In this document: positions 4,633-61,925 of the stretch, piece by piece
How positions within the stretch are numbered: the first letter of the stretch is position 1
Layout: the number at the start of each line of letters is the position of its first letter
Assembly (NCBI GenBank): GCA_011033025.1
Contig: WFMF01000117.1
Location: 248,001-312,000, forward strand
DNA length: 64,000 bases
Direction: 5' to 3'
Source: Beroe forskalii
Lineage: Eukaryota; Ctenophora; Nuda; Beroida; Beroidae
Translations under genes and position numbers: made by a program
The notes under the pieces: model-generated
Database searches by the model: none
Seen by the model: the letters and a program-made list of their open reading frames with translations, nothing else
What the model was told of the DNA's origin: nothing

Positions 4633-5055
4633 GTGGTATATATCTCTATGAAATAAGGGATTGAAATTCTAGCTTCCCATCCGGGGAAATAGCGTACACC
4701 AGAGTTATCCCACTCTAAAATTGAGTAGGTATTGAGTTTGCAAGTTGAATTGGCCTAGGAAAGAAAAAATCTTGCAATTTCGAAAATTTTTGTTCGAATT
4801 ATGAAATTGTGAATATGGTGCATCGAAATACATTCAGCCATGATGGTGTAGTGGTAAACTCACTGGCTCAAAAGCAGAGGGTCATAGGTTCAAGACTCGA
4901 TGGAATTCATTTTTTTTCGATCTCGACGTCATCGGACAACAAGATCTTCTACATTTTACAATTATGAAGCCAAAAGAATCATACTGCAGGCTCGATATAA
5001 ATACAAATTTAGAGGGATGGGAAGCTAGAATTTCAAGTCCTACTAAGGATACCGC
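4633..5055. mobile_element. MITE in right arm of Pal-1 (mirror copy)
   Basis: Its outer end (TAAGGATACCGC, 5044-5055) mirrors the left-arm MITE and TA flanks both ends. The inner end (GTGGTATATATCTC) differs from the left-arm MITE, so the inverted identity stops a few tens of bases short of the inner termini. Confidence 0.6.
4836..4907 (+). repeat. tRNA-derived SINE-like module (mirror copy)
   Basis: A-box-like TGGTGTAGTGGTAAAC at 4843-4858 and B-box GGTTCAAGACTC at 4887-4898. It is the inverted counterpart of 4224-4303. Confidence 0.6.
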
Positions 5056-8078: not shown

Positions 8079-8531
8079 CCCTGACGAGTTGGTCTAGCGT
8101 GGTTCCACGCTAGGGAAGCGGTTGCCAACCGGTTGCAAACTGGTAGTGGAACGGTCCACAACCGCTTCACTAGCGTGGTTCCACGCTACGTAGCGTGGCA
8201 ACTAAGCTACGTAGCGTGGAACCACGGTATGTAGCGTGGTTGATTGCAGTAAAACTACCATGCTACGTAGCGTGTAACCACGCTACGTAGCGTGGCTGAT
8301 AATTAGGGTAATTAACGACGAAAAATGTCAAATATCGCGCACAATCAACCACGCTACATACCGTGGTTCCACGCTACGTAGCATGGTCGCCACGCTACGT
8401 AGCTTAGTCGCCACGCTACGTAGCGTGGAACCACGCTTAGTGAAGCGGTTGTGGACCGTTCCACTACCAGTTCGCAACCGGTTGGCAACCGCTTCCCTAG
8501 CGTGGAACCACGCTAGACCAACTCGTCAGGG
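8079..8531. mobile_element. foldback element built on the palindrome CCACGCTACGTAGCGTGG
   Basis: A 453-bp inverted repeat beginning CCCTGACGAGTTGGTC and ending GACCAACTCGTCAGGG. Arms of about 90 bp match almost perfectly, and the interior repeats CCACGCTACGTAGCGTGG. Flanks show only TT on each side. Removing the element and one TT leaves the LINE frame continuous (APLINKCMDNGYFP), which fixes the insertion boundaries. Non-autonomous; superfamily not assigned. Confidence 0.85.
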
Positions 8532-9667: not shown

Positions 9668-10453
9668 AGTAAAAGTGTCACAAGAGTTGTGATTTTTGTC
9701 CAATGGATCCATTGGATCCATCATGTCCAATGGACATGTCCAATGGATGTCCATTGGACATCCAATGGACATCCATTGAACATGATGTCCATTGGTAAAA
9801 ATGTCCAATGGTGTTCAATGGATCCAATGGATCCATTGGATCCATTTTTGATGTTCAATGGACATGTTCAATGGATCCAATGGATGTTCAATGGATCAAT
9901 CGAGGAAAACAAGAAAATTTGAGGAAAACAATGGATCCATTGTGCCCATTGAACACCATTGGACATGTCCATTGGATCCATTGGATCCATTGCACATTGT
10001 GTCTATTGGATCCAATGGATCCATTTTGTCCATTGGACACAATAGATCCATTGGACACAATGGATCCAATGGACACAATGTACAATGGATCCAATGGATC
10101 CAATGGACATGTCCAATGGTGTTCAATGGACACAATGGATCCATTGGATCCAATGGACACAATGGATCCATTGAACAAAAATACCAGTCTGATGTCCATC
10201 TACCAAACCATGTTTGGTGATTGTGTCCATTGGATCCACTCAGATGGATCCATTGAACATCCATTGGATCCATTGAACCTGTCCATTGAACATCAAAAAT
10301 GGATCCAATGGATCCATTGGATCCATTGAACACCATTGGACATTTTTACCAATGGATGTCATGTCCAATGGACGTCCATTGGACATGTCCATTGGACATG
10401 ATGGATCCAATGGATCCATTGGACAAAAATCACAACTCTTGTGACACTTTTAC
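9668..10453. mobile_element. Mutator-like foldback element made of GGATCC palindromes
   Basis: A 786-bp palindrome whose ends read GTAAAAGTGTCACAAGAG and its complement, flanked by a 9-bp direct repeat CACTTTTGC (9659-9667 and 10454-10462). A 9-bp duplication with long inverted arms is the hallmark of Mutator-like elements; an 8-bp hAT duplication is the alternative. The interior is almost wholly ATGGATCCAT and TCCAATGGA units. The long frames open on both strands here are a by-product of the repeat. It probably sits in the LINE 3' region. Confidence 0.8.
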
Positions 10454-11723: not shown

Positions 11724-12016
11724 TATGGTGGCCCAGCAGGCTCACTTTTTTTCACATGTGTTTTTTGTGTTTTAGGCGAAAAAACACTGAAAAACGTGTT
11801 TTAGACACAAAAATCATATAATTTTTACATAGTAAGTTTTTTCATGAAATTTGTGTTTTAGACGCATTTTTACTGTTTTTGTGTTTTAGACGCGTTTTTA
11901 GTGTTTTTTGTGTTTTAGACACATTTTTAGTGTTTTTTGTGTCTAAAACATAAAATTCATGAAAAACGCGTCTAAAACACAAAAACACATGTAAAAAAAG
12001 TGAGCCTGTTGGGCCA

Positions 12017-12586: not shown

Positions 12587-12963
12587 TGGCCCAACAGGCT
12601 CACTTTTTTTACATGTGTTTTTGTGTTTTAGACGCGTTTTTCATGAATTTTATGTTTTAGACACAAAAAACACTAAAAATGTGTCTAAAACAGAAAAAAC
12701 ATGAAAAACGCGTCTAAAACAGAAAAAACATGAAAAACGTGTCTAAAACAGAACAAACACTTCCTAAGCCCGCATAGGTGTGTATACGCGCCGCGCGCTT
12801 CCCTACGGGAAGCTGAGGAAGCGCGCCGCGCGAGCCACACAGGGATATACGTGTTTAGCAAAAAAACACTAAAAACGCGTCTAAAACACAAAAAACACTA
12901 AAAATGTGTCTAAAACACAAAAACACTTAAAACGCGTCTAAAACACAAAAAACAGTAAAAATG

Positions 12964-13359: not shown

Positions 13360-13740
13360 GAACAAGTTCGCCGCGAACTAGTTCGCAGCGAACTTAAATT
13401 TTTTGGTTGGCGAACGATTGTTCGCCGGCGAACAATCGTTCAAGGCGAACTAGTTCATGGCGAACAAGTTCGCGGCGAACTAGTTCGTGGCGAACAAGTT
13501 CGCGGCGGACTAGTTCGCCGCGAACTAGTTCGCGGCGGACTAGTTCGCCAAGAACTAGTATTTTTCTAAGTTCCCCGCGAACTAGTTCGCGGCGGACTAG
13601 TTCGCCAAGAACTAGTATTTTTCTAAGTTCCCCGCGAACTAGTTCGCGGCGAACTTCATTATTCATTTTATGCTGCGAACTTGTTTTTCATCAACTATAA
13701 CAATTCCCCTACAAACTGCCAAACTAGTTCGCCTCGAACG
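13360..13740. repeat. array of GCGAACTAGTTCGC palindromes
   Basis: About 20 copies of a 14-16 bp unit GCGAACTAGTTCGC and variants (one GTTCGCCGGCGAAC). A matching remnant lies at 14395-14450, so the whole 13360-14455 block may be one foldback element. Frames rich in Arg-Thr-Ser or Glu-Leu-Val here are repeat artefacts. Confidence 0.75.
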
Positions 13741-13744
13741 ATTG

Positions 13745-13890
13745 TTCGCTAACCCGAACCCAAACCTAACCCCTAACCCAAACCCTAACCCCTACCGCCC
13801 AAACCTAACTCCAACCTCTAACCCTAACAGTATACTGTTAGGTTAGGTTAGGGGTTAGGCTGCTAGTTTTGGTTAGGGGTTGCCTGGGGT
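13745..13890. repeat. telomere-like interstitial repeats meeting head to head
   Basis: CCTAACCC-type units on the left turn at CAGTATACTGTTAGG (about 13827-13845) into GTTAGGGG-type units on the right. Too degenerate to be recent telomere addition. Confidence 0.6.
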
Positions 13891-14460
13891 TTTTGGTTTG
13901 GGGAAATTCAAATACCCAAACCCCAAAACCAAACAAACCCCCAAAACCCAAACCAAAAACCCAACCCAAACCCAAAAAACCCTTAAAAAACCCAACCCCA
14001 ACGGCTAACAAAATTTGTTCGGCGCCATCCCAAAGAAAAAAAAAGGGTTCGTTTTTGGGCGCGCCCCCCCGAAGGCAAAGGGGCAACAACGCGGGAAAAA
14101 GTTCGCCCCGAAAGCGCTGCGAACAAAAAGGGGTTTTTGCGGGGCGGGCTGGGTAGTTCGTGGGGGGTTTGCCCAAAGGGCCCCGCGGGTTCGCCGCGAA
14201 CCCCAAAAAAACGTTCCCAACCAAAAAAAAATTTTCCCCCGGGGGGAAATTGCCCCGGTTTGGCGCTAACGCGGGGCGCCTGGGTTTCCCAAAATTTGCC
14301 AGGGTTGGGGAACGTCTGGGGGAAAACCTTTTGGGGAACTTTCAGGGGGTTTGCCAAGGAAAAATTCGAACTGTCGGCACCTGGGGCAAACTTTTTTGCG
14401 GAGTTCGCGCGGGTTCGCCTGAGTTCGCCAGTTCGCGGCGAACTAAAGTTCACCCGCCTA
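13891..14460. other. low-quality, homopolymer-smoothed sequence
   Basis: Runs of CCCAAAAACCC, GGGGTTTTT and similar dominate and stop codons are rare on both strands, giving several overlapping long frames. I read this as consensus error, not genes. Confidence 0.5.
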
Positions 14461-19304: not shown

Positions 19305-20136
19305 TGGTGGCCCAGCAGGCTCACTTTTTTTCACATGTGTTTTTTGTGTTTTAGGCGAAAAAACACTGAAAGACGTGTTTTAGACACAAAAATCATATAA
19401 TTTTTACATAGTAAGTTTTTTCATGAAATTTGTGTTTTAGACGCATTTTTACTGTTTTTTGTGTTTAGACGCGTTTTAGTGTTTTGTGTTTAGACATTTT
19501 AGTGTTTTTTGTGTTTTAGACGCGTTTTAGTGGTTTTTATGTTTTAGACGCGTTTTTCATGTTTTTTCTGTTTTAGACACATTTTTCATGAAATTTGTGT
19601 TTTAGACGCGTTTTTACTGTTTTTTGTGTTTTAGACACGTTTTTCATGTTTTTTGTGTTTTAGACACATTTTTAGTGTTTTTTGTGTCTAAAACATAAAA
19701 TTCATGAAAAACGCGTCTAAAACACAAAAACACATGTAAAAAAAAGTGAGCCTGTTGGGCCATGAGTGTTACAGAGGGTGTCGCCCGTCGCGCTTAACGC
19801 GCCGCGGCGCCTACTCCGTGTTCCCCTAACCAGTTGTAGGATGTTACCCTACCCTCCGCCGCGCACACAACGTTTTCCGCGTATGCAACACGACCCTCCA
19901 AACCTCCGAGTGTTGCGCGCAGGGATGGGAGAAATCCATCAACTAACCAGGGGTGTCGCGAAACAAGGAGCAAGGCGCGGCGCGCGCGTAAAACTAGGGA
20001 TCTGGTTAGAGCAAACTCCGTGCGTAACCAAAGTGAAAGCTTCACCACGGCAGATGGTTGCCCGGCCCTAACCAAGACCCTGCTTTCAATTTCGCGACAG
20101 AGTGCGCGCGTTGCAGCAAGCGTTACTCCATGTTAC
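19305..20136. mobile_element. composite palindromic element, copy 2 (left half)
   Basis: Starts TGGTGGCCCAGCAGGCTCAC after TA (19303-19304) and follows copy 1 through the left arm, the inner terminus and the left part of the GC-rich core. Homology stops near 20130 at a hairpin, and the right half is absent. It carries one extra 109-bp insertion. Confidence 0.8.
19834..19942. mobile_element. 109-bp insertion with 8-bp target duplication
   Basis: Compared with copy 1 (CCCTAACCAGGGGTGTCG), copy 2 has 109 extra bases between two exact copies of CTAACCAG (19826-19833, 19943-19950). Ends TTGTAGGATG and CATCCATCAA-like are imperfect inverted repeats. The 8-bp duplication suggests a hAT-type mini-element. 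Confidence 0.75.
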
Positions 20137-20534: not shown

Positions 20535-22258
20535 TGAGTAATTTTCGAGATACCTATCAGGTCAAATGGTTCAAAAATGGCAAAAAGTCGATTTTGAGCA
20601 TGTACCAACCAACAGAAATTTTTGTGCAGGGATGTTCATTTCATCATTGTCTTTCAGAAACCGTAAAGAAAATTGGGGGTCTATGTGCTTATTTTCGAGA
20701 TATAAGGTCAAACGCAAGGAAATACCGAAGAAAATGGTTCAAAAATGGTTCAAAAATGGCAAAAAGTCGATTTTGAGGATGTTCCCACCAACAGATTTTC
20801 CTGAAATTTTGCAGGGATGTTCATTTCATCATTGTCTTTCAGAAACCACAAAGAAAATGGGGGTCTATGTGCTAATTTTCGAGATATAAGGTCAAACGCA
20901 AGGAAATACCGACGAAAATGGTTCAAAAATGGCAAAAAGTCGATTTTGAGGGTGTTCCCATACGAAATTTTGCAGGGATGTTCATTTCATCATTGTCTTC
21001 CAGAAACCATAAAGAAAATTGGGGGTCTATGTGCTAATTTTCGAAATATAAGGTCAAACGCAAGGAAATACCGACGAAAATGGTTCAAAAATGGCAAAAA
21101 GTCGATCTTGAGGGTGTTCCCACCAACAGATGTTCCTGAAATTTTTCAGGGATGTTCATTTCATCATTGTCTATCAGAAACCATAAAGAAAATTGGGGTC
21201 TATGTGCTAACTTTCGAGATATAAGGTCAAACGCAAGGAAATACCGACGAAAATGGTTCAAAAATGGCAAAAAGTCGATTTTGAGGGTGTTCCCACCAAC
21301 AGATTTTCCTGAAATTTTGCAGGGATGTTCATTTCATCATTGTCTTTCAGAAACCACAAAGAAAATGGGGGTCTATGTGCTAATTTTCGAGATATAAGGC
21401 CAAACAGAAGGAAATACCGACGAAAATGGTTCAAAAATGGCAAAAAGTCGATTTTGAGGGTGTTCCCACCAACAGATTTTCCTGAAATTTTGCAGGGATG
21501 TTCATTTCATCATTGTCTTTCAGAAACCGTAAAGAAAATTGGGGGTCTATGTGCTTATTTTCGAGATATAAGGTCAAACGCAAGGAAATACCGACGAAAA
21601 TGGTTCAAAAATGGCAAAAAGTCGATTTTGAGGATGTTCCCACCAACAGATTTTCCTGAACTTTTGCAGGGATGTTCATTTCATCATTGTCTTTCAGAAA
21701 CCACAAAGAAATTGGGGGGTCTATGTGCTAATTTTCGAGATATAAGGTCAAACGCAAGGAAATACCGACGAAAATGGTTCAAAAATGGCAAAATGTCGAT
21801 TTTGAGGGTGTTCCCACCAACAGATTTTCCTGAAATTTTGCAGGGATTTTCATTTCATCATTGTCTTTCAGAAACCATAAAGAAAATTGGGGGTCTATGT
21901 GCTTATTTTCGAGATATAAGGTCAAACGCAAGGAAATACCGACGAAAACTGTTCAAAAATGGCAAAAAGTCGATTTTGAGGATGTTCCCACCAACAGATT
22001 TTCCTGAAATTTTGCAGGGATGTTCATTTCATCATTGTCTTTCAGAAACCACAAAGAAATTTGGGGGTCTCTGTGCTAATTTTCGAGATATAAGGTCAAA
22101 CGCAAGGAAATACCGACGAAAATGGTTCAAAAATGGCAAAATGTCGATTTTGAGGGTGTTCCCACCAACAGATTTTCCTGAAATTTTGCAGGGATTTTCA
22201 TTTCATCATTGTCTTTCAGAAACCATAAAGAAAATTGGGGGTCTATGTGCTAAGATAT
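20535..22258 (+). repeat. satellite array, monomer about 173-174 bp, forward
   Basis: About ten head-to-tail monomers, each containing CCTGAAATTTTGCAGGGATG and TTTCGAGATATAAGGTC. The step is 173-174 bp. Neighbouring monomers differ at only a few positions. Where the step is 174 (58 codons) the array stays open in one frame, giving a false 311-residue protein. Monomer size is near nucleosomal, as in many centromeric satellites; that role is only a possibility. Confidence 0.9.
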
Positions 22259-22904: not shown

Positions 22905-24612
22905 CATATTCCTTGCGTTTCGTGAAATTTCCTTTGCGTTTGACCTTATACCTCGAAAATAAGCACATAGACCCCCAATTTTCTTTATGGTTTCTGAAAG
23001 ACAATGATGAAATGAACATCCCTGCGAAATTTCAGGAAAATCTGTTGGTGGGAACACCCTCAAAATCGACTTTTTTGCCATTTTGAACCATTTTCGTCGG
23101 TATTTCCTTGCGTTTGACCTTATATCTCGAAAATTAGCACACCCCAATTTCTTTTTATGGTTTCTTGAAAGACAATGATGAAATGAACATCCCACGGGAA
23201 AATCTGTTGGTGGGAACATCCCAAAATCGACTTTTTGCCATTTTGAACCATTTTCTCTGGCGGTATTCTTCCTTGCGTTTGACCATTTCGAAAATTAAAA
23301 TATAGACCCCAATTTTATGGTTTCTTAAAGATGAGAAAATCGAACATCCCGTAAAATTTCAGGTCTGTTGGTGGGAACACCCTCAAAATGGACTTTTTGC
23401 CATTTTTGAACCATTTTCGTCGGCCTTTATATCTTTATCTCGAAAATTAGCACATAGACCCCCAATTTTCTTTATGGTTTCTGAAAGACAATGATGAAAT
23501 GAACATCCCTGCAAAAATTTCAGAAAATCTGTTGGTGGGAACACCCTCAAAATGGACTTTTGCCATTTTGAAACCATTTTCGTCGGTATTTCCTTGCGTT
23601 TGGATATATCTCGAAAATTAGCATATAGACCCCCAATTTTTCTTTATGGTTTCTGAAAGACAATGATGAAATGAACATCCCTGCAAAATTTCAAGGGAAA
23701 ATCTGTTGGTGGGAACATCCTCAAAAATCCTTTTGCTTATTTTTGAACCATTTTCGGTATTTCCTTGCGTTTGACCTTATATCTCGAAAATTAGCACATA
23801 GACCCCCAATTTTCTTTATATGGTTTCTGAAAGACAATGATGAAATGAACATCCCCTGCAAATTTCAGGAAAATCTGTTGTGGAACTTGCCCTCAAGATG
23901 GACTTTTTGTTATTTTTGGAACCATTTTCGTCGTTATTTCCTTGCAAGTTTTTATATCTGAAAATTAGCACATAGACCCCCAATTTTTCTTTATGGTTTC
24001 TGAAAGACAACAGATGAAATGAACATCCTGCAAAATTTCAGGAAAATCTAATTTGGGTAGAACACCTCAAAATGGACTTTGCCATTTTTGAACCATTTTC
24101 GTCGGTATTTCCGTTTATTTTTATATCTCGAAATTAGCACATAGACCCCCAATTTTTCTTTATGGTTTCTGAAAGACAATGATGAAATGAACATGCCTGC
24201 AAAATTTCAGGAAAATCTGTTGGTGGGGAACACCCTCAAAATCGACTTTTTGCCATTTTTTGAACCATTTTCGTCGGTATTTCCTTGCGTTTTGACCTAT
24301 ATCTCCAGTACCAGCACATAGAGACCCCAATTTTCTTTTGGTTTCTGAAAGACAATGATGAATGAACATCCCTGCAAAATTTCAGGAAAATCTGTTGGTG
24401 GGAACACCCTCAAAATGGACTTTTGCCATTTTTGAACCATTTTCGTCGGTATTTCCTTGCGTTTGGCCTCTTATATCTCGAAAATTAGCACATAATTTGT
24501 TTTTTTATGGTTTCTGAAAGACAATGATGAAATGAACATCCCTGCAAAATTTCAGGAAAATCTGTTGGTGGGAACATCCTCAAAATCGACTTTTTGTCAT
24601 TTTTGAACCATG
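22905..24612 (-). repeat. satellite array, about 173 bp, reverse
   Basis: About ten monomers of the same satellite in the opposite orientation. They vary far more in length and homopolymer runs than the forward array, either older or poorly basecalled. The array ends abruptly at about 24612, where the 52-bp satellite begins. Confidence 0.9.
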
Positions 24613-47474: not shown

Positions 47475-47759
47475 AGCTCCGGGGGGATTGTAGCCCAAAA
47501 AAAACCAAGCCCTACCCTATTTTTCGATTCTTGGGCTAGGTTTTTTTTGGTTTTTTTTGGTTTTTTTAGGTTTTTTTTGGGTTACATTTTGGTCATTTCT
47601 GGGGCCTATTCCAATGAATTTTGACATAGAAATCTGTTGTTTTTGAACATAATTTTCACAGTCAGTGGCTTTTTAAGTTTATTTGGCGAATAGAAACGGC
47701 TATTTTCACATTTTCAGAGCTTGAAGGGCTTGATATCACCTAACAGTAAAATGCCAAAT

Positions 47760-49230
47760 ATTGCCTGACTAACTGGTGTCTCTTGCTGACTTACTGGTGA
47801 CTCTTGCCTCAGTGACTGGTGACCCATGCCAGACCCAGCTTGTAACTTTTGCCTAACTCACTGGTGACTATGACCTGATCCAATGGGACCTCAAACCTGA
47901 GCGGCTGTGACTCCTGGCTGACACGCTCAGTGCTGTCCAGCTTTGCAACTCTTGCCTTATTCACTGTTGACTCTGACCTGACCAACTAGGGCCTCTTTTT
48001 CTCTAGCCTGACTGAATAATGACTTTTGCCTGACCTATTGGCTTTTTTTTGGTAACCTTTACCCGTTCCAGATGGCGATTCTTGCCTGACCAAATTGTGA
48101 CCAAGTTAGGCCTTTTTGCTGAATTCCTCAATGACTGGTGACTCCCATTACCTGATCTCCTGGTGCCTCCACACTTGACCTACTAGCGTCTCTCACCTGG
48201 CCTACTGACAACCTTAGCTGACCTAATAAGGAATCTTATCTGGCCAACTGGCGACTCTTACCTGGCCTAGTGACACTTCTTATCTGACCTACTGACTAAT
48301 CATCTCTGACCTACTTGCGAATCTTACCTGACCTACTTTAATACTTTCGACCATTGCCTGACCATAGGTGACAGCAGACACTTACCTGTGACCCAGCTGG
48401 TACTTCTTGCCTGACCCACTAGTAAAACTTAAATTAAAAGCTCAAATAGGTAACTGTTTTAGCCATTGGCGTCTCTTGATCCTACCTTACCTACTAACGT
48501 CTTCTGATCCTACCTGACCTACTAGCTTCTGATCCTACCTGACCTACTGGCATCTCCTGATCCTACCTGATCTTTTGGCGTCTCCTGATCCTACCTGACC
48601 TATAACTGACGTCTCCTGATCCTACCTGACCTATATCTGGCGACTGGCGTCTCCTGATCCTACCTGACCTACTGGCGTCTCCTGATCCTAACTGACCTAC
48701 TGGCGTCTCCTGATCCTACCTGTCCAACTGGCATATTCTGGACTGATCCTACCTGATCTACTGGTGTCTCCTCATCCTGCCTGACGTACTGGCATCTCCT
48801 GATACTACCTTACCTATTGGCATGTCCTGATCCTACCTTACCTACTGGCGTCTCCAGTTCCTACCTGACCTACTGGCATCTGGACTGATCCTATCTGACC
48901 CATTGGAGACTGGCGTTTCCTGATCCTACCTGAGCCTCTTAATCCTACCTGACGTACTGGCATCTCCTTATACCACCTTACCTATCGGCGTCTCCTGATC
49001 CTACCTGACCTATGACTGGCGTCTCATGATCCTACCTGACCTAAAGCTGGCGTCTCCTGATCCTACCTGAGCATCGTGATCCTAACTGACCTAATGGCAT
49101 CTTCTGATCCTACCGTACCTACTGGTGACTGCTATCCTACTTGATCTTACTGGCGTATCCGGTTCCCTACCTGACCTATAACTGGCGTCTCCTGATCCTA
49201 CCCCATGACTCCAGCTGGTACTTCTGGTCT
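47760..49230. repeat. minisatellite core: CCTGATCCTACCTGACCTA units
   Basis: The first half repeats CTGACC, ACTGGTGACTCTTG-type units loosely. From about 48470 a roughly 28-30 bp unit, GGCGTCTCCTGATCCTACC then TGACCTACT, recurs about 20 times. Confidence 0.8.
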
Positions 49231-49324
49231 GACCCACTGCTGACTCTTAGCTGATCAAGTAACCAACTGGTGATTCTGAGGCGATCTTCTGGCCGGATAC
49301 CCTCTTACATGAACCAGAGGCTGA

Positions 49325-49525
49325 CTAGACCCTTGGCGGCATCCTTTTCAGACTCACTTCTCCCAGTGTTAATTGCTCAATTATGACTTCACAGGACAGT
49401 AGAACATGTTTCATCAACAAGTCGACTCTCGCAAGAAGCTGTTGGCACTTGCCTGTCCCTTTGCCACACAGATGACTTTTTGACAGCTCGTGAAAGATAT
49501 GCTGAGCATCAAAAATCAAGCCTTG
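49325..49525 (-). pseudogene. coding-like fragment inside the G6 element
   Basis: An open frame of about 65 residues on the minus strand (IFDAQHIFHELSKSHLCGKG; LMKHVLLSCEVIIEQLTLGE) ending at a stop. It is non-repetitive, unlike its surroundings, and has ordinary amino-acid composition. It could be a captured host exon or a transposase scrap; I recognise no family. Confidence 0.3.
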
Positions 49526-50317
49526 CTGACTGATGAAGCCTTTATCATTGCTTGGTGCCTACAAACTGGTCTTCTGGTGATACTGATCACTGTGGCTGAC
49601 CTTTGTCAATCATAATTTAAGCAAGAATGCTAAATTGCTCTCAACTGGCCGACCTTCATCTGGCGACCTTCACCTGGTGCCTTGTTGGTCCTTTCTGCCC
49701 TCAGACCTCCCCCAGCTGACTCCCTGCAACACTTCTCTGGCCCTCTGGTGACACTAGTCTGACCTCCTCATGAAGCCTTATCTCGCCCTGAGATGCGATG
49801 TAACGCTTGGTGAACGAAGGACGACCTTTTGAAGGACCCTCGGGTCTTGAATAACCCCTACGTGGTAATGAGTGGCCAGAGCGCTCTCGTTTAGACCAGT
49901 ATGGCCTGATTCGACCCTTTTGATCCTTTATTGTTCCTCTCTAATCACTGTTGGACCAAGGTCCCGTGAGCTATCTCATGATTTTCCGTTGTACCTTATC
50001 AAAAAGCACTGAGGGCTCTTATTAAAATGCTTCTCAAATGCTAATAAAGTCCTTAAAATAGTGATTTAAGCCATATGTAATTATTGAAAACCATTGAGTA
50101 TCAATAAGAACATGTAAATAACACTAAAAACACATTGGTGTGAAATGTCCAAAAAGTTCAAAAAAATCCAACCCAAAAAAACCAAAAAAAACCTAAAAAA
50201 ACCAAAAAAAACCAAAAAAAACCAAAAAAAACCAAGCCCTACCCCAAATTTAGGATCTTGGGCTTGGTTTTTTTTGGTTTTTTTTGGTTTTTTTTGGGCT
50301 ACAATCCCCCCAGCTCC

Positions 50318-51197
50318 CTCCACTCTCACGAGCATGTGATGGTTGCTGGTAGCAATGAAACCTAATACCACATACAACCCTCCTCTCCCCGCATATATAC
50401 CAGCGAGTATGTGTGTGTGAGGGAGCTCTCTGCGCTGCTGGGTCTGTGTGTATGTACAGGGGATTGTGTGGCTGTATGGGAATTGGGAGTGTGTAGCCGC
50501 GTATAGGGGTTTGTATGTATATGTATGTCTGTTGGTGGAATGTATGTTTTAATGAGTGTGAAAGATTGCTCTGACGCTCTGTGCGCTGCTTGATTTGTGT
50601 AGAGGTATGGGAATGTGTGTAAGTGTGTGTGTGTGTGTGTAATTTTAGTCACATATATGGGTTTTTAAAACGGTAAAATGTACATTTTGTACGAGTGTAT
50701 GTGGTGTATTATCCGGTAATATTTTCATCTGCTGCCTTATGATAAGCGCGTGTTCATGGGCGAGTGAAGTAAAACTGATAGCACGGAGCCAATCACCCGC
50801 AACAGCAGCTGGCGGTGTACGCTGTACCAACATTGCAGAGTAATTGATTTGGATAATATGATTAAATCGCGGTGATACAGTCGGACACGCTTTACACCGG
50901 CGTGTAATATACATACATACACGCGTGACACGCGTGTATGTATGTGTACTATGATTGTGTGTGTGCTATGCTTCCTTGCTCTCTCCCATCTCAGTAATTC
51001 TAGGAATATGATCTTTGGAATACAAACCTCCCTCCTCTCCCATTCTCCCACTTACTCCAAAACTGCGTCACAGCTATAAAAAGAATAAGTACAAATTATT
51101 AACGTCTTTTCCTCCACAACGTCTCCATGTAAACGAGCTGAGCTGTGTGGTTCTTGGTTATGCGTATTATGAGATCGTCGTGCGTTATCAATACTTG
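50318..51197. other. unique DNA with GT tracts
   Basis: GT runs at about 50616-50640 and a TGTATGTATG/CATACATACA inverted pair at about 50910-50945. No gene is assigned. Confidence 0.4.
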
Positions 51198-51259
51198 GTT
51201 GAAAGTGACATCATTATCATGGTTTAGAATAGTGAGTATTGATGAGAGTATTGATGATG
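51198..51259 (+). repeat. dispersed repeat, copy B
   Basis: GGTTGAAAGTGACATCATTA then TCATGGTTTAGAATAGTGAG. Same order as the copy at 58109, with the CpG of the octamer lost. Confidence 0.65.
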
Positions 51260-53608
51260 TAAGGACAGCCTACATACATGTGACACATAATATATCACCA
51301 CCATATTCTTGTCTCCTGATGATTTGCTTGCAAACAGCAAATGTCCTGGGACAAAGACGATCATTGGTTGAGTGGCAGTCTCTGAGTGATGTGTGAGTGA
51401 TGTATGAGTGATGAGTGAATGTAGTGTGTGAGTGTAGTGTCTTTGTGGAGTGTGAATAACACGTTGTGTTTTACAAGCTGAGAGTCCACTCATACATATG
51501 ACATATATCTGCGTATACGCTATACATTTCTCCGTGTACATAACGCAATATGCATTTTCAAGTGTAAACTTGTAACATCTATACGAGTGTTTGCAAAGAA
51601 TCTTCCATGTATCTCATGACAGAGGAGTGTTAAATTTGCCTGCCGAATACATATACGTATTAGCCTGCTACATGTGTGTTAGTCTACTTCATTCGTGGGG
51701 TACCAGTAGCTTACACTCAACACTCATTTTAGTGTCTCTTCACTATTGTTTCTCATCACAAGCCCCCCTCATTATTCATGTTATTTGCTCCTTTTCACCT
51801 CACTCAATATGACTTATAAAATTGTAAAGTTATAATGCAGATAGCAATTTCTGAGAAAATATCCCCTGAGCTGGAAAGGCTTTTGTATTCGAACGTACGA
51901 GGGGGTTTGTACCTCACTGACTCTCTCGAGCCTCAATACAAACTAGAACATAGCAATAACATATCAGTTCTTGACAAATGACATGTTTAGTGCGGTATCA
52001 CTCGATTTGAGGCACAACAGAATACTAGAAACTGGTTCCTTGATAACTGTTACTATCACATGATGCTTCCTGCTCAGTGACATGACGAGTTTCAATCCCA
52101 GCGCTGTGAATCTGTTGTGTAACACAGATCTAGGATAAGTGCTCAGTCAAGAGTCAGACACCCAGGCGAGTACTAGATTCCAAAGAACACACATCCTCCG
52201 ACCTAGTTCACATGGGAGGGGTTCCATAGAATGGGTTCACAGAATAACGAGTTATAAAATACTTTGCATTTGGAGAATTATATTTCACACTCAAATCCAA
52301 TCGCAATAGATCAAAATAGAACTGTGTCAAAGGAATTGTTGCCAACTTTTATGGTTGTGGCTGCAAACGGTGGTAGCCGACTTGTCACCAGCCCTATACT
52401 TTCAATGGTGAAGGCACTTTTGGAGGAATTGGCGATCTCAGTTAAATTTGAACTTTTTACTCTGCTTTTCATCTTTTTACTGCCTCTCAGTATGTTTGAT
52501 GTTTCAAATATTGTATGATTTTCAAACTACTTCCATACAGCTTCGTTGTTCAAATCACAAGTTACATTACCCAAGAGAAGTGTGAGTGTTGAAGCGGCAA
52601 GAAAATTTTTATTTGCCATGAAACTGGGATAATGATAGGTTACTAAATAGTTTTGTCTATTTGAATCAAAGTTGAGCCAATGAAATCGATCCTGTATGAG
52701 TTGTGAGTTGAACCGAGAGCATTTTATTGTTACATTTATAATGCTTCATGCTTTTCAGGAGACGAAAGCAATTATTTCTTTCATTCTCTTTGGTTAAGAA
52801 AAATTGACTGGTTTGAAACCTCTGTCTTATGTAATCCTTCGCTTCGGGTTATATTTTCTGTGACTTCTATATGACGTTTCACCAAGCAATCGTATAATAA
52901 ACCCCCTAGTAGGTAGATTCAGGACACGGTTATAGGAATTAATTTACAGTTGCCCGGAAGATTAATTACACTTTGATTATTAAACACATGCACTTCGGTA
53001 CGTGAAGGGAATTTAATCCCGCTATGCCGGATAATGCAAGAATGCACCATACGTCTGATTGTCCGACCTCTTCGCTCAAACGACCTCTTCGCTCAAACGT
53101 CATCACTTCTTCATTCCAGACAAAGAAAATGATGTAATTTTTAGCCTCATCCTATTTAGCTATTTGTGTGCAATGTGTCCCCCATATTATTACGTCTTGT
53201 TCGACAGGTGCTTTGAATCTGATGGAAAACAGTCTGGGATTGCGTCAGCCGTCGTTACATCGTTAAAATATGAAGTTTTTTTAAATTATTTTTATTTTTA
53301 TTTTATTTTTATAATTTTTTATTTAAGTGAAGTTACTGAGCTGCCTGGTGATAGATATCTACTGTGAAGTCCGGTGAAGTGTGTGTTTGTATAATTCAAT
53401 GAGGAACACCATGAACAGGGAGACATCACTGTATCGACTTGATAAATGGGGAGTCATCACTGATGTCAAATTGAGCTTAGCGCCATCCAAACTTGACCGA
53501 CTTTCATCTTGAGACGCGCTCCTCCGCTGGCTGGGAAATCGAATCATGAAGAGTCAGAGTGAGCTAACTTACTAGCTCATTACCATTTGCCCTGCATTGA
53601 AAATATTG
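51260..53608. other. unique AT-rich DNA, no gene recognised
   Basis: No frame shows a domain or exon layout I can defend. Confidence 0.4.
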
Positions 53609-53663
53609 AGTTCATCGTCATCAGCTCACCATTCTAAACCCTGATAATGACGTCACTCTCAAC
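53609..53663 (-). repeat. dispersed repeat, copy D
   Basis: On the minus strand GTTGAGAGTGACGTCATTAT then CAGGGTTTAGAATGGTGAGC and TGATGACGATGAAC. Nearly identical to the copy at 58109-58163. Confidence 0.8.
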
Positions 53664-56600
53664 AGATCGATTGTTGGTGCCCAACTAACATAGTATATGT
53701 TAGACGAAGTGATCTAATACCCCGAAATGATTTGGTGAGATTGCACTGCTTGACGTATAAAACCTATTGCTGTTAGAATTGTTTGAACTTATAAAATGAA
53801 TTTCGTCATGCAAGGCAATATGTTGACCTGGAAGGTGTCTTTTATATATTTTGTATTAATTAATTTACTCGTAGTTCACGGTACATTACTATAACTTCAC
53901 CTGAAAATTTATTGAAGACGGCTGGCTGTGTTTTATATAATATCATGTTTTAAAGTACTCTCCCCCTATTTCGTTCTATATTCTACAAACGATGTTCACA
54001 GTACAAGCGTATAGCCGGCTGCCATGTCTAAATATACCTGATCTAATGCCGCTGATAAAGTCATATCCCAATATATATATATATATATGGCATACAGACC
54101 TCTGTAAATGGATAATATTTGTCCGTTAAACAATCATGTGCATCGAGTGTACACCGTGTGTCTAGTGTATGTGTGTTTGAGTGTAATCTACTCGGTGTAT
54201 TCCAGTGGTGAATCTAAATTTGTAAGGTGAATGTGTATTGTGTTCGTGTGTAATGTACATTTCAACTTGTGTGTACTGTTTAATGTACATTTCGACTTGT
54301 GTGTTCTGGATGTAAATTCCATGTCTGTATAATCCTGGGGTTCCATTCCGAAACTGAACTTAAAAAGTTAAACCGAAAAGTCAGTTTAGAAGTAAGTGAA
54401 ACTTTGATTGCAATTTACACTAAAATTTTGATTTAAGTTCGTTTTTTGACCCCCTTGTGAACCTCAGTTGAGTGCCAAGTGTTGGTATTCACTGTAAAGG
54501 ATTAAAGCACACATTCTCCGTGTAATGTCTCCGCATGTTTTATTAGATGTAATGTTTAGCACATTATATAATGCAGAAGATGGGCATGATAAACAGTAAC
54601 GGATAATAGTAGTGCGTTCTATATCGTGAAAAAGTTTAACATTTTCAGAATGCTGTATAGTTTTCTGAGTATTAGAGGGAGCAAAATTGAGGCGATGTTT
54701 AACTCGCATTTATATTTCCTGGGCAATTATTGGAATTAAACAAGTGCTATATCTATAGACATTTTATAATACATCCAGAAATCAGAGCTTTACTTCATGA
54801 AACTTCAAAATATATCAATTTCTAACTCAAGACTTGAGAAGTTGAATTTATCAATGTTAGACCTGGTTTTCAGACAGAATTAAACTTGCAATCTGAGTTT
54901 GATAGATAATTCAATGGACTGAAACTTTTGGACAATGCAGCACTCAAATTATTTCGCTAGAATTGAATGATTTAAAATATTATGCTCTTGCAATTGAGCG
55001 ACTGAATTATGATTTATGAATATATCGATTAAGAAACATTTGCAATCGTTTTAATAGAGAATAGATTTAAAAGCTTATATGGTTGGAGTGATTTACCCCT
55101 CATATTGATTCATGAGTTTGTGTGGGTGTATGACTGTGCAATGTGCATGAGTGTTATGTGTGGGTGACGGGTGTGTGTGGGTGTGATATGTTTGCCCTGT
55201 GTTCGTGATACTCCATTAGATGAACTAGCTGCAGCAGTTGTAGTTGACAGGCTTCTCAGCAATGTGACAGGGAGAGAGAGAACGTGTGCTGCTGCAAGGT
55301 GATTTCTGTGTGTAACGTGTGTATGTGTGTCTTTCTGTTTGTCTATTTGTTGGTTTGTTTCAATAAGGTTCACAGATAAGGTTTGTTTTTCTTCGTGGTT
55401 GTCTGTCTGTTTCTTAGTTTGTCTGTCTGGCTGGTGTTTAGTGCATGCTCTGCCCACAAAATCTCTGACAATTTAACTAACTGAGGTCTGTGGTCTGTCA
55501 GTAGCAGCTGCTGAACTTTTGAAAAGGCAAGGGGGTGATTCTCCGATCCCACCCACTGCTCTTGTGCTTTTGCTAATAATGTTTCCTACTGAGATTGTTG
55601 CCCCAAACCCTAAACGAAGTATTAGGTCACTCTGTTAAGTTCACCTTCCTTTCCATCGTGAGATATTGGTATTGAGTAGATTATTTTAATAGTTGTTTTT
55701 CTATAAACTCTACGTCATCTTCTTAACCTTCTTACAAAAAACAATGATATAATGATAGAATAGTTTAAGTGGCAATCAGGACCGGTAAATGTGTCCAAAG
55801 ATCAACGAAACTTTGAATTTACTGTAATTCAGATCAAATCTTTTGATTATTTGCGTGATTCATCAACACCCAATCCTCTGATATATGAGAAAACAGTCCT
55901 AGGCGATATTCGTCAAGATAACTCCAATTACTGCCGGCCTAATTATTGTCAGGCAAACGACACACAAAATTTCGTCTACAATTATTACAATACCACATTT
56001 ATACCACGTGCTCCACCCATTATTAATTGATAATTAATACATTATATTGGCATTAGTCATTCTTATAACCCAACAATAAGAGTTCACCTGTGATGATTAG
56101 GTATACTATACTTCACATCGTACTATCAACTTCAAATCTTTTGTGTTGGTATATCTGTCAATTTGCCACGATATATTATTAGGTCCAACTCCCATTGAAA
56201 CCACATACCTCAACACACAAAAACTCTGCTACAATACACAAGAGCACGTTGACTTGACTATAAAGGTAGGCCTATAATACTTCTACATTATCATTCCAAT
56301 TGTCCTAGATATATATAAATAACAATTGGCGTGCTGACTTTCAAAACGTTGATAATATATAGGTTTTATCTCGCACATCCCCCCAAGATGCCACATGTTA
56401 TATGTTAAGCTGTTACAGATATCTATGTTATGTACTCTAGCTAAATAGAGCTTGTTGTTGTGTGTGCTAATGTACTGTGTAAGCTGCGGGCAGGGACGGA
56501 GGGGTGTAATATATAAGAGGGACGCGGCTGGGGCTAAAATTGCCAATTATCACCGGAGCTTTTGCAATTTATAATGGCGGGTTGTGTATGATTAGGCTGT

Positions 56601-57671
56601 CCAGATCTCGGGGGTAGTTAGTGTCAGCCTTACAAAATGTTATATATTGCTTACTGATACTGCTCAGCGCTAAACATTTGTGTATCATGTGTGTGTGTGT
56701 GTGAGTGTAATATACGACACAGGGCGTAGCAAGCTGCAAGGTGTAGTTATGTGTGTTGTCTTATGACTATACAGTAGTTGAGACGCATAGGACCAAGTTG
56801 TGAGGATCAAACTCTACATGATCATTGAACGTAGGATCAAGTGGGTGTCTGTTTTTTGTGAATTCGCTTAAGATCATCACGGTGCACGATATTATGTAGC
56901 TTCATGATAATTGGGCATTGGGAAATGCATCTAAATTCGTTCAAAACTTCTCTGCAACTCAGCTACCAAGAACTATTTCGCATGTAAGGTTGCGGTCTTG
57001 GCTGAATAAACCGAGTCATATTATAACCAGGAGCCCAGTAAAATGTACGCCCCACACACCAATATATGACGCGAATAGCAGTTTAAGGGTGACGTCACTC
57101 TAACCCTCATTGTAAAGTTTAATAACCCTGTCAAGTGCTGACGACAGTTGCTCCTTCTCTCGTGTGCGTAGGGTGGTTACGCGGAATTTCTCAGACAGAG
57201 ATCGAGGAAGAACATTGAAAATCATATGAGCATTTAAGAGCATTCTTATAGCTAATCTAAAGACGAGTAAGACGACAGGCTCTCTCGTGATTCGTCTTGA
57301 GATTCAGGAAGAGTTTAGGGAGGAAGCGTAAAAGTTGCACGGCTATCAATCGATAATTGAGCAATTATATCATTTTAATGGTGGATGACAGCTCGGTAGG
57401 AGGAATAACAGAAAACAACGTTTCAGTATTACAGTGTTTTGCTTAGCTGAATTTCAGAGACTAAAAGATTTTGCTTCTTTTTTGTTACTAAATTTCTGTT
57501 AAGATTATCTTAAGTTCGTTTACTGTCAGTACCAGTACCTACAGTCAACTTTTTTTTCTCAACTACGGATCTAAGATAGCTAGATGGTTACTGTATTCAA
57601 ACTTTTATGCCTTATTTCATATCGCTCAGCATTGTTAGAAAGTTAGAAATCAAACTCGATTCTATAATTCA
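53664..57671. other. unique AT-rich DNA, no gene recognised
   Basis: Contains an AT microsatellite (54071-54088) and GT-rich patches (55115-55190, 56685-56705). No gene is accepted. Confidence 0.4.
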
Positions 57672-57677
57672 TTTATT
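57672..57677 (-). terminator. polyadenylation signal AATAAA (minus strand)
   Basis: TTTATT on the plus strand, 8 bases beyond the stop of the exon at 57686-58013. Confidence 0.45.
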
Positions 57678-57685
57678 TCATGTTG

Positions 57686-58013
57686 TTAACTTTGCACACA
57701 CTTTGGATGTCTGCCAACATACATCATTGAACTATTAAATGTGTATGTGTGCGGAAACATCAGATCGTCAGTCATGATAATTTTAATAGAAACACGACCA
57801 CGTAATAAACTATTGTCGCCATCATGTAACACAATTCTGGAAATATCAGCAAAACAACGTGCTATTTGACCTATGCTTAGAGTTACCAGCTCTTCCCCTC
57901 CCCCTGTGTGGACTGTTCCTTGAACAGCTCTGTAGTTGCTAGGAATATATCCCTGGTACCCAATTAAATATAACACCGTTTTTGTCGAAGCAGGGGGGTA
58001 TAATTGTGTCCCA
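57686..58013 (-). CDS. probable terminal exon, unidentified protein
   Basis: On the minus strand an open frame of about 108 codons runs from a possible acceptor (GCAATTGTAG ending at 58014) to TAA at 57686, followed by AATAAA. The frame is closed upstream by a TAA at about 58027, so if real it is spliced. It reads as a compact mixed sequence (GTQLYPPASTKTVLYLIGYQ; GTVHTGGGEELVTLSIGQIA; RGRVSIKIIMTDDLMFPHTY) with alternating hydrophobic strands. I recognise no family. Upstream exons should lie at higher coordinates; I could not identify any. It may be an isolated gene fragment. Confidence 0.4.
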
Positions 58014-58108
58014 CTACAATTGCAACATTACCCGATTCCCAATATGGTTAAATGAAGAGCACCTCTACACCCGCCATTTAGGAAAGAACACGTACGAAAA
58101 GCATGGGC

Positions 58109-58163
58109 GGTTGAAAGTGACGTCATTATCAGGGTTTAGAATGGCGTGTTGATGACGATGAAC
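58109..58163 (+). repeat. dispersed repeat, copy C
   Basis: GGTTGAAAGTGACGTCATTA then TCAGGGTTTAGAATGGCGTG and TTGATGACGATGAAC. Near-identical to the inverted copy at 53609-53663. Confidence 0.8.
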
Positions 58164-59402
58164 AGCATATTGCTCGGGCGCTGCTGCCGCTTCGTGTGAT
58201 TCCGTGCAGTGGAAGTAATTCAAATATATTCTGTTCCTGCATTATATACCCATAATAGTTCATGCCTTACACACGCCGAACCATTGGGTCCTTACCTTAC
58301 AGAAAATGAAGTGAGCAGTTTGCGAATGAAATATATGGTTTTATGGAATTTCTCTATTTTTTGGAATATGAGACATTTTGGCGACGTGTGTGGGTCTTAG
58401 AGTTTATAAGAATCTATAAATAACACCGTTTATAGTCACGATGATAATAATTTTGAATTTTGTCTTTCAAATCTTCGTTCATGTCAGATGTCAGTTCTTC
58501 GGAGTTCTCAGTATGTCTCATTGCCTCAAATAGCTCGATAAATTCCACAGTTCACGCATTTTTCTAAATACCCTTTTAAATATGTTGTATACATACCATG
58601 GTTACATCTTAAAATTTTTTCCAGTTATACTTTATACTCATTATACCCCGTATTTTATGCCTAACAGCTGGGTAAATTAAAGTTCTATCACCTCGTTGCA
58701 TTTCGTATGATTTCACCGGCACAGAAGGTTTCTACTTCCTTGCCACTTTCAGCCCTGTGGGTGTTTTAAAACTTGACAAAGCCTCGAACGGACTGGAACG
58801 GATAGGTACAGGTTTCATGATGTAACCTATGAAGTTGCATGGTTATTAACGATAAACAGTTAATTGTGAGCTATTGTTTAAAATATTACCAAAGTCCAAA
58901 ATTTCTACATTTTTTACTGCCCATATATAACCGGTTGGTGTGTGTATGATAAATGTGCATGTAATCGATTCTTGTCAGCACCACAATTACATCTGCAGCC
59001 TGTTTCGTGTATATCTCATCGGAAGTATGCCTACACAACGTTTCACAAATCAAAAGTACCAGGTGGTACAAGCTTTATTAAGTCTTATTGAACAGACAGT
59101 CTGCGTGCAGTAACGATCCTAACGATTAACGACGTGTCATACTTATAATGTGAATGACACTTCATGCTTATTTTAGCGGTTTGTATACATACAAGTGTCA
59201 TAAGTCATTCATCTTCATGTATGTGAATTGTGTACAACCATCGTATTATCATTTTTACTGGTTGTGTATAGCTTTCCAAATGTACGAGTTACAGCTTCTC
59301 GGTTTGTGTGTTCGACAGTTTGTTTGTACCACTGTTCGAGTGTTTGGCTCCTTGTTTGTCTGTAAGACACATTTTGATAGCATTATACGCGGTATATATA
59401 AT
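58164..59402. other. unique DNA, no gene recognised
   Basis: No accepted frame. Approaches the TA-rich left boundary of the foldback element. Confidence 0.4.
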
Positions 59403-59754
59403 ACAAGGTGTACCACGAAAAACGTTACAAAAGTAAACTTTTATTACTCGGCTTCTGTTTGGAGTTTCTGGATGAAATTTTGGGAAGTCATAGATATAGG
59501 CTGAAAGTTTTTGCACAACAAATTTGAAGTGTCTAGCTCAAAAAATGTTTGAGTTATCAACAAAAAACCGCTTTTTTGACCATATCTCCGCTCCTGGGAC
59601 TCAAAAATGTTAGCTACTCCTTGGATATATTGGTCAAATATTGCCCGTAATATCCTGAAAGTTTCATCAAGATTGCTCAAAAAACCTCGGAGATATGCGC
59701 ATTTTTGTATCGTAAAAAGTGTACATAAAGCACAATTAAAGGGTACATTATCAA

Positions 59755-61354
59755 GGGGGGCCAACCCCCATAAACCCCCGGTGGATATCGAAAAATGGCA
59801 AATGGGGGTTTAATTTTTGGGGGTTTATGGGGGCTTAATTTAGCTAAATTTGGCTGTTTTATGATTAATTTTTGCACGATTTTTGGCTTTTTTAACGGAA
59901 TGGTACCATTTTTGTTAAGGATTTTGGACCCTTTTCTGAAATGGTACCATTTTTTTGTTGGCGATTTTTAACCCTTTCTGAAATGGTACCATTTTTTGTT
60001 GACGATTTTGGGCCCTTCTTTGAAATGGTACCATTTTTCGTTGATTATTTTCGAACCTTTTCTGAAATGGTACTATTTTTGGCCCTTTTCTGAAATGGTA
60101 CCAATTTTCGTTGATGATTTTCGACCCTTTTCTGAAATGGTACCATTTTTTGTTGGAGATTTTTCGCCCTTTTCTGAAATGGTACCATTTTTTGTTGACG
60201 ATTTTGGGCCCTTCTTTGAAATGGTACCATTTTTCGTTGATTATTTTCGAACCTTTTCTGAAATGGTACTATTTTTGGCCCTTTTTATGAAATGGTACCA
60301 TTTTTCGTTGATGATTTTCGACCCTTTTCTGAAATGGTACCATTTTTCGTTGATGATTTTCGACCCTTTTCTGAAATGGTACCATTTTTTGTTGACCATT
60401 TTGGGCCCTTCTTTGAAATGGTACCATTTTTCGTTGATTATTTTCGAACCTTTTCTGAAATGGTACTATTTTTGGCCCTTTTCTGAAATGGTACCATTTT
60501 TCGTTGATGATTTTCGACCCTTTTCTGAAATGGTACCATTTTTCGTTGATGATTTTCGACCCTTTTCTGAAATGGTACCATTTTTTGTTGACGAATTTCA
60601 ACCCTTTTCTGAAATGGTACCATTTTTGTTGAAGATTTTTCGCACTTTTCTGAAATGGTACCATTTTCTGTTGACGATTTGCGAACCTTTCCTGAAATGG
60701 TACCATTTTTGGCCCTTTTCTGAAATGGTACCATTTTTCGTTGATGATTTTCGACCCTTTTCTGAAATGGTACCATTTTTTGTTGGACATTTTTCGCCCT
60801 TTTCTAAATTGGTACCATTTTTTGTTGACGATTTTTGGCCCTTCTTTGAAATGGTACCATTTTTGATTGATGATTTTCGACCCTCTTCTGAAATGGTATC
60901 ACTTTTTGTTGACAAATTTCAACCCTTTTCTGAAATGGTACCATTTTTTGTTGAAGATTTTTGGCACTTTTCTGAAATGGTACCATTTTCTGTTGACGAT
61001 TTGCGAACCTTTTCTGAAATGGTACCATTTTTGGCCCTTTTCTGAAATGGTACCATTTTTTGTTGATGATTTTCGACCTTTTTCTAGAATGGTACCCTTT
61101 TTTAGAGATTTTTGGCTTAACTTTTCTTCCTTTCTTCGCTTCTTAGTTTAAATACGCCTTTAAAATTGAGCAAGGATCACAAGAATTACACATTTTCACC
61201 ACAATTGAGCCATTTTTGTCTGAAAATTTGATTATTTTGGAAATGGTACCTGGAAAATTAAACCCCCATAAACCCCCAAGTGGATATCGAAAAAGGCAAA
61301 TGGGGGTTAAATTTTTGGGGGTTTATGGGGGTTTATGGGGGTTGGCCCCCCCCC
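59755..61354. mobile_element. second G6-ended, hairpin-ended element, nested
   Basis: Begins GGGGGGCCAACCCCCATAAA and ends with the complement. The 6-bp direct repeat TATCAA flanks it (59749-59754, 61355-61360). Each end folds through CCCCCATAAACCCCC and GGGGGTTTATGGGGG, and the loop GTGGATATCGAAAAA lies in the same orientation at both ends. The core is the 42-bp array below. The plan is the same as 47481-50311, with unrelated sequence. Confidence 0.75.
59890..61095. repeat. 42-bp array built on AAATGGTACCATTT
   Basis: Roughly 28 units of TTCTGAAATGGTACCATTTT plus a variable half (TTCGTTGATGATTTTCGACCC). Because 42 is a multiple of three and stops are rare, frames of up to 349 residues stay open on both strands; these are artefacts. 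Confidence 0.9.
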
Positions 61355-61925
61355 TATCAAGCTTGCATAGTTTTACATGTCCAAATATGGAGATAAGCAC
61401 CGTGTTTGTTTACATTTCATTTCTAAAAGCTTGCGTATACACACTATTTTGTGTTACAAAAATGCACATATCTCCTACGTTTTTTGAAGAATTCTGATGA
61501 AACTTTCAGGATATTACGGGCAATATTTGACCAATATGTCCAAGGAGTAGCTAACTTTTTTCAGTTCCAGGAGCGGAGATACGGACAAAAAACGGTTTTT
61601 CGTTGATAACTCAAACATTTCTTGAGGTAGACACTCCAAATTTTTGATGCGAAAACTTATGACCCATACCTATGGCGTCCCAAAATTTCATCTTAAAACT
61701 CCAAACAGAAGCCAAGTTATTGACTCTCAGAAACTGAAAAATGGCCAAAAAACAGGGTTTTTGTTGATAACTCGGATATTTTTTAAGCTAGACACTTCAA
61801 ATTTTTTGTGCAAAAACTTTCAGCCTATATCTATGACTTCCCACAATTTCATCCAGAAACTCCAAACACAAGCCGAGTAATAAACGTTTACTTTTGTAAC
61901 GTTTTTCGTGGTACACCCGGTATAT

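Follow-up and report, generated by a model that had tools for sequence, protein, structure and literature searches.

Non-autonomous elements of the foldback or miniature inverted-repeat transposable element (MITE) type that carry tandem repeats are already known, an example, in the accessible part of its description, being the Drosophila foldback element Tetris (PMC4079207). Here we describe two elements, A and B, in a 64,000-bp stretch of the genome of the ctenophore Beroe forskalii (the window: positions 248,001 to 312,000 of contig WFMF01000117.1, assembly GCA_011033025.1), each of which runs from a tract of G to a tract of C, has a hairpin at both ends and carries a minisatellite core. As far as that description is accessible, Tetris is non-autonomous, has tandem repeats of ∼220 bp within its terminal inverted repeats, no conserved open reading frame (ORF) and target duplications of 8–10 bp, and its autonomous partner has not been found. 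A and B resemble it in being non-autonomous, in carrying tandem repeats, in having no conserved ORF and in that no autonomous partner was found, but differ in the local hairpin at each end, the direct orientation of the hairpin loops and the central minisatellite (PMC4079207). Galileo, of the P superfamily, is credited in the text available with terminal repeats of variable length, duplications of 7 and in some cases 8 bp and a palindromic target motif; the variable terminal repeats and the mixed duplication lengths are paralleled in A and B, whereas no such target motif was detected at their sites (PMC4168063).

The tandem-repeat-bearing MITEs, short non-autonomous DNA elements, share variable tandem-repeat cores with A and B, and the accessible part of their description makes no mention of an end module with direct, end-specific loops and arms spaced at 10 or 15 bp (PMC12628747). 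Members of the Dada superfamily, according to the portions of the sources available, likewise make 6–7-bp duplications, but insert in multicopy small RNA genes and have no terminal inverted repeats (PMC3706591, PMC8869645), whereas A and B have inverted ends and varied, AT-rich targets, the sites having been compared without a scan for RNA genes. Target duplications of 6 bp are given for IS3EU and Polinton, with termini TA..TA in IS3EU and TA..TA, occasionally TG..CA, in GingerRoot; A and B match IS3EU and GingerRoot in their 6-bp duplications and differ in their termini, a G run and a C run, on the evidence of the excerpt available (PMC10045372). Going by these partly accessible descriptions, the end plan of A and B matches none of Tetris, Galileo, the tandem-repeat MITEs, IS3EU or Dada, and literature searches aimed at the combination, at known superfamilies and at foldback elements gave no match recognised from titles and abstract openings, Repbase and most subscription papers lying outside that scope. 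An earlier annotation of the window, made from the letters alone (hereafter the sequence-only reading), had suggested an undescribed class of element; such a class is not established, foldback/MITE elements with tandem repeats being known.

Results

Insertion, target duplications and empty sites

Element A (2,831 bp) occupies 47481..50311 and element B (1,600 bp) 59755..61354; both are non-autonomous, and all features are given on the + strand. Each begins with GGGGGG and lies between exact 6-bp direct repeats, AGCTCC for A (47475..47480 and 50312..50317) and TATCAA for B (59749..59754 and 61355..61360), and the starts, flanks and boundaries given by the sequence-only reading are all exact. 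The limits of A follow from its exact flanking repeat and from identical ends in 13 other copies. The CCCCCC with which it had both elements end is present in A (G6 left, C6 right), while B has G6 on the left and a run of C9 on the right.

The 216-Mb assembly containing the window was searched for further copies. Exact A ends matched at 82 + 74 places (156; GGGGGATTGTAGCCCAAAAAAA, for the left terminus GGGGGGATTGTAGCCC at 47481..47496) and exact B ends at 62 + 72 (134), with no match for either reversed control. From the genome stretches read, 14 two-ended copies of A, 13 of them besides that in the window, and 36 of B were recovered. Once ambiguous run letters are assigned, duplications flank 13/14 A copies (6 bp in 12, 7 bp in one) and 34/36 B copies (5 bp in one, 6 bp in 19, 7 bp in 11 and 8 bp in three), while mismatched flanks agree over at least 5 bp in 1/182 pairs for A and 7/1,260 for B. 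The proposed 6-bp duplication therefore describes A, with a single 7, but is too strict for B, which ranges from 5 to 8 bp and is mostly 6–7. The copies without a duplication are L025 (A) and L049 and L057 (B); the flanks of L057 both show TAATAAGG, by eye, if two end letters are counted as mutated. The G run is six letters long in 9/14 A copies and 5–8 in the others, and 4–14 letters long in B. Copies with the same ends differ in length: 2,831–3,365 and 4,789–10,484 bp for A, and 497–624, 1,046–1,706 and 3,852 bp for B.

The joined flanks of seven copies were searched against the genome, and 40 of 1,113 candidates were scored. Full-length empty sites, each with a single target copy, were found for 3/7 flank pairs. 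For the B copy of the window, two sites (L087 on C1049 and L088 on C670) align over 160/160 columns without a gap (157 and 156 identical), and a third (L089, on C192) has one gap, away from the junction. These sites hold TATCAA once, which means that 6 bp were duplicated when exactly 1,600 bp inserted. Two A copies (one duplication of 6 and one of 7 bp), L014 and L018, have gapless empty sites on C155 (L090) and at two places on C202 (L091, L092), respectively. A further B copy, L053, is nested in another B copy; when its flanks are joined, they align near full-length to 20 distinct sequences (29 rows). No empty site was found for the remaining three flank pairs, including that of the window copy of A, among the 40 candidates scored of the 1,113; the joined flanks of B copy L055 gave a partial, gapped match only. 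Comparison with empty sites, the test that the sequence-only reading had set for itself, was thus passed for the B copy of the window, two other A copies and one nested B copy. A and B inserted as discrete units, from G run to C run, duplicating their target.

The B copy of the window sits inside another repeat (about 59675–61440), its joined flanks matching at least 30 places (on C1049, C670, C192 and others) at 87–98%. Many of these places lie beside an inverted copy of ∼50 bp, as in a further inverted-repeat element.

The end module

All four ends fold as DNA. The left hairpin of A (47495..47550, loop CCCTATTTTTCGATTCTTGGG) has z = −4.20, with 1/200 shuffles folding equally well, and the right (50202..50297, loop CCCTACCCCAAATTTAGGATCTTGGG, direct relative to the left loop) z = −7.65 (0/200). 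The corresponding values for B are z = −2.71 (3/200) for the left hairpin (59765..59833, loop GGTGGATATCGAAAAATGGCAAATG) and z = −4.68 (0/200) for the right (61260..61334, loop AGTGGATATCGAAAAAGGCAAATG, again direct). The hairpins of 80–110 bp described for each end are therefore present as folds, but that at the left end of A is short, phased repeats running on from it on the inner side alone. These repeats (GGTTTTTTTT, 47539..47580) have a period of 10 bp × 4.2 by Tandem Repeats Finder (TRF), and similar phasing is found on the inner side of the right end of A (AACCAAAAAA, 50170..50235, TRF period 10 × 6.6) and at the right end of B (TTTATGGGGG, 61312..61343, TRF period 10 × 3.2). Across copies, the G5/C5 tracts of the B arms are spaced at 10 bp in 175 and at 15 bp in 62 of about 240 spacings, and among about 40 spacings of the GG/CC in the A arms 20 are of 10 bp. 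DNA with A8CC repeated every 10 bp should be curved, as is DNA with phased A-tracts in general. The outermost inverted repeats are GGGGGGATTGTAGCCC..GGGCTACAATCCCCCC in A and, in B, the G run followed by CCAACCCCCATAAACCCCC, with its complement.

The loops served as search patterns for the module. The A loop pattern has 121 + 95 genome matches (216; control 0) and the B-type pattern 445 + 362 (807; control 2). Among neighbouring loops less than 6 kb apart, taken from 100 of the 807 B-type and 100 of the 216 A matches, left and right loops lie on the same strand in 38/38 B-type and 27/27 A-type pairs, with the left loop first in 37/38 and 27/27; the A-type count leaves out 46 unpaired rows, and by eye none of these lies within 6 kb of a loop on the opposite strand. 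The sole exception to the order, as scored by the rule used, resembles a variant of the right loop. Among the full copies a same-strand right loop is present in 35/36 B and 13/14 A and an opposite-strand one in none, and the two unmatched right loops are direct by eye (L080, one letter changed; X189, an insertion). The direct orientation of the loops seen in the two window elements thus extends to every pair found.

The loops are end-specific, with letters typical of the family. The B loops are the best-kept windows of that element (0.97–0.99, 15/36 copies aligned), and the left and right B loops are more like each other (0.90) than either is like the loops of other families (0.72–0.87). The copies retain a module consisting of the G run, a palindromic arm with 10/15-bp tract spacing, an end-specific loop and a second arm.

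Related families

Among the first 100 of the 807 B-type loop matches three families can be told apart, B, B2 and B3, each with its typical left and right loops; three matches fit no class. B2 is about 69% like B, its left ends have 62 + 54 genome matches (116; control 0), and the single copy read, which lies within X189, has by eye a 6-bp duplication, TGTATA. The likeness of left to right loop is 0.87 in B2, as in B, and 0.79, unlike B, in B3, whose single copy read (L086) has its right terminus beyond the stretch read. A further family, A2, is known from left ends alone. In the four read (L093–L096) the terminus differs from that of A, a G run being followed by TGAAGCCC, while a 57-base stem-loop is identical to that of the window copy of A at 54–55/57 positions in all four; just inside it, 52–55 of 76–78 positions are identical, again in all four.

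B, B2 and B3 have end and core sequence in common, and A and A2 have their ends in common. The hairpin end plan occurs in at least four families (A, B, B2 and B3), and its left end also in A2. Since the plan is repeated in further families, its joint presence in A and B, which the sequence-only reading had remarked on, is not coincidence. The same annotation had called A and B unrelated in sequence, and this is largely so, although both left loops hold ATTTTTCGAT (47519–47528 in A, 59787–59796 in B; by eye), on opposite strands as written. This 10-mer, shared by otherwise unlike elements, is weak evidence by itself and could be due to chance.

Cores and the search for an autonomous partner

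The core of A (47761..49202) is made of 22-bp and 28-bp units with gaps, and that of B (59899..61033) of a 42-bp unit with AAATGGTACCATTT, the array periods being 28 and 22 in A and 42 in B. Among ORFs of at least 130 aa no transposase-like frame lies in either element, the only such ORFs being two frames (349 and 173 aa) that run through the minisatellite of B. Tandem-repeat scan and ORF list thus agree with the description of both as tandem-repeat cores without a transposase.

The autonomous partner with the same ends for which the sequence-only reading had proposed to look was not found in the six long copies read. Four of them have A ends, and in none was a transposase frame recognised: X189 (L061 + L062, 10.5 kb) holds the B2 copy and a frame that we take to be GIY-YIG-like, L063 inverted tandem arrays, L064 a foldback-like element and L065 a TTCGATA array. 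The same is true of L066, which has B ends and frames with the look of a reverse transcriptase and RNase H of the long interspersed nuclear element (LINE) type; the GIY-YIG-like and LINE-like identities were recognised by eye and are presumptive. In the B3 copy, L086 (4 kb), the ∼2.6 kb that separate two minisatellite blocks are unassigned, and the longest frame outside the minisatellite is 99 aa. A further candidate, X376 (10.5 kb, on C376), was rejected as a single element: its B-type ends lie inverted and form part of either a larger inverted repeat or a fold-back of the assembly. The ends and flanks of this 10.5-kb stretch (C376:177400-188080; L059, L060) are reverse-complementary, each with a B-type end. 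Duplications flank all five long A and B copies and read as four letters plus GG in X189 and as five plus G in L064 and L065; because the 39-bp array flanking X189 shows the target as AACTGG (by eye), the run of X189 itself is six G.

Domain searches of the genome gave 23 hAT, 46 MULE and 150 rve matches; the P RNase H model PF21787 had no genome match, its controls being equally silent. The nearest lead is an rve match on C567, at 8 kb on the inner side of one B2 left end, which is weak and was not used. Nine rve matches lie in frames of 357–391 aa (C346:58765, C178:295628, C669:563504, C619:28241, C818:21443, C64:1653, C913:1208580, C1000:17013 and C997:3399) that are unlike the long frames of long terminal repeat (LTR) elements and that we would guess to be IS3EU- or Polinton-type enzymes.

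Other repeats and genes

The element nested in L064 (about 3108–4873) is a separate foldback-like element with palindromic GTTCGCGGCGAAC arms, a 12-bp telomere-like core (CAAACCCTAACC × 41) and an apparent 8-bp flanking repeat, GGCTGGAG; window 13360–13976 resembles it (all by eye). The window also contains two large 174-bp minisatellite arrays with related units in opposite orientation, ∼670 bp apart (20564–22253 and 22927–24611), arrays of short palindromic units (8171–8437, CCACGCTACGTAGCGTGG; 9722–10400, TCCAATGGA) and, scattered and in either orientation, arrays whose 29-bp units (TTTGTGTTTTAGACGCATTTTTAGTGTTT) are alike (11850–11942, 12661–12961 and 19429–19687). A 435-aa frame on the − strand (1205–2512) carries a Myb domain at its C-terminus (PF00249, E 8.8e-8) and presumably resembles telomere-repeat-binding factors.

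Discussion

We consider it likely, with a probability of roughly 0.7, that the A and B families consist of cut-and-paste DNA transposons that are non-autonomous, of the foldback/MITE type and moved in trans. Like class II elements with terminal inverted repeats, they show discrete insertion with a short duplication and inverted outermost ends, and it is the short duplications, the clean empty sites and the inverted outermost ends that point to a DDE/D transposase. Such an enzyme, encoded elsewhere, would bind the hairpin end module in trans, pair both ends and cut at the G run; joining to the target with a 6–8-bp stagger, followed by repair, would then produce the duplication. The palindromic arms would supply the inverted repeat needed by the transposase while the unlike loops may mark the left from the right end, and the minisatellite core would be a passenger, expanding and contracting through slippage or unequal exchange. 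In foldback elements the two ends carry long inverted repeats able to pair with each other. In A and B, by contrast, the ends fold locally, and the duplications are mostly 6 bp (A) or 6–7 bp (B), against the 7–10 bp of Tetris and Galileo in the descriptions accessible to us.

To judge from sequence comparison, the mobilising enzyme probably recognises the hairpin end module. The module is the likeliest site of binding for two reasons: A and A2 have it in common although they differ in terminus and inner sequence, and the B loop windows are the best kept. The suggestion of the sequence-only reading that the enzyme recognises the hairpins gains indirect support from the loop orientation and left–right identity seen in every pair, as well as from the stem-loop kept between A and A2.

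Several observations weigh against non-autonomous transposition by a DDE/D enzyme that recognises these ends. None of the long copies read, five of A or B and one of B3, showed a transposase, and no listed hAT, MULE or rve match lies, by eye, between facing A or B ends, in a comparison that covered the first 100 ends listed per family (of 156 A and 134 B). With no autonomous partner found, the superfamily of A and B cannot be assigned. A palindromic target motif was not detected at the A and B sites (p 0.55–0.66), and for a DDE/D enzyme the mixed 6-, 7- and 8-bp duplications of B vary rather widely. Within A, one inner window is as well conserved (0.97) as the left loop (0.97), and the value for the right loop is 0.90–0.92; because the A loops show no clear excess, conservation within a family may reflect age. 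Finally, 24/30 places listed for the host repeat of the window copy of B are 8–14 bases longer than the query, although its three closest places (L087–L089) are without these extra bases.

There is a considerable chance, if somewhat below even, that these are ordinary MITE or foldback families whose direct loops reflect a historical accident, with the arms alone acting as inverted repeats and the loop orientation of each founder being inherited by the B group and by the A group. A normal transposase would need only the arms for movement and, the arms being palindromic, loop orientation need not matter for arms that are inverted. Given the kinship of B, B2 and B3 and of A and A2, there were perhaps only two founding events, so that direct orientation could have arisen by chance (two direct outcomes, 1 in 4). 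An accident is harder to reconcile with left–right identity retained across diverged families and with the conservation of the B loops (0.97–0.99 in 15/36 copies), an argument to which A, without a clear excess, adds little. It also sits poorly with B loops that are mutually closer (0.90) than to those of other families (0.72–0.87), as is likewise so in B2 (0.87) and not in B3 (0.79). At the other extreme, A and B may belong to a superfamily not yet described, with an enzyme that distinguishes the left from the right end by the direct hairpins yet makes a 6–8-bp staggered insertion, the loops being read strand- or structure-specifically on helically phased arms; this we regard as doubtful. If true, it would combine two ways of recognising ends that do not occur together in known transposons.

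HUH transposases of the IS200/IS605 type and integron integrases read hairpins, and ends read as folded single strands in such a fashion would account for foldable hairpins at both ends, each exposing a like loop on one strand, direct orientation being what such an enzyme would need. We find this unlikely: the IS200/IS605 type has a Y1 HUH enzyme that is not known to make a target duplication, and we know of no HUH or integron-integrase-type enzyme that makes short target duplications with exact empty sites as demonstrated for A and B, whose outermost G/C runs are moreover inverted, as for DDE/D enzymes. Similarly, Helentron-associated (HINE-like) elements are known for tandem-repeat cores and terminal hairpins, and the absence of coding capacity in A and B would fit, but to our knowledge Helitrons and Helentrons make no target duplication, and one is demonstrated here by empty sites; such rolling-circle elements are the least credible of the explanations considered. 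An integrase-type (rve) mobiliser of the IS3EU/GingerRoot or Polinton kind would fit the 6-bp duplications of A, and the genome holds 150 rve matches, nine of them in 357–391-aa frames. It is nevertheless improbable, since the termini are G..C rather than the TA..TA or TG..CA given for IS3EU and GingerRoot in the source available, the B duplications are mostly 6 and 7 bp, and no listed rve match lies between listed facing ends. Direct modules at both ends and 6-bp duplications might also suggest short LTR-type retroelements similar to terminal-repeat retrotransposons in miniature (TRIM), with the two modules as LTRs. This is very improbable: the left module lacks the outer TTGGC run of the right and vice versa, and loop letters that differ between left and right and are kept within families show that the modules are not homogenised in each round, unlike LTRs. 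Nor is there a solo module, by eye, among the ends listed (100 of 134 B and 100 of 156 A), the nearest facing ends among them being 479 bp (B) and about 2.5 kb (A) apart.

The A and B families are mobile elements that carry minisatellites, whose lengths vary among copies with the same ends, and such elements could be one of the ways in which dispersed tandem repeats originate. The recurrence of one end plan in at least four families of a single genome, with loop orientation and left–right identity retained in the pairs found, provides a testable idea of end recognition, in which a transposase might recognise ends that are palindromic in their arms yet directional in their loop.

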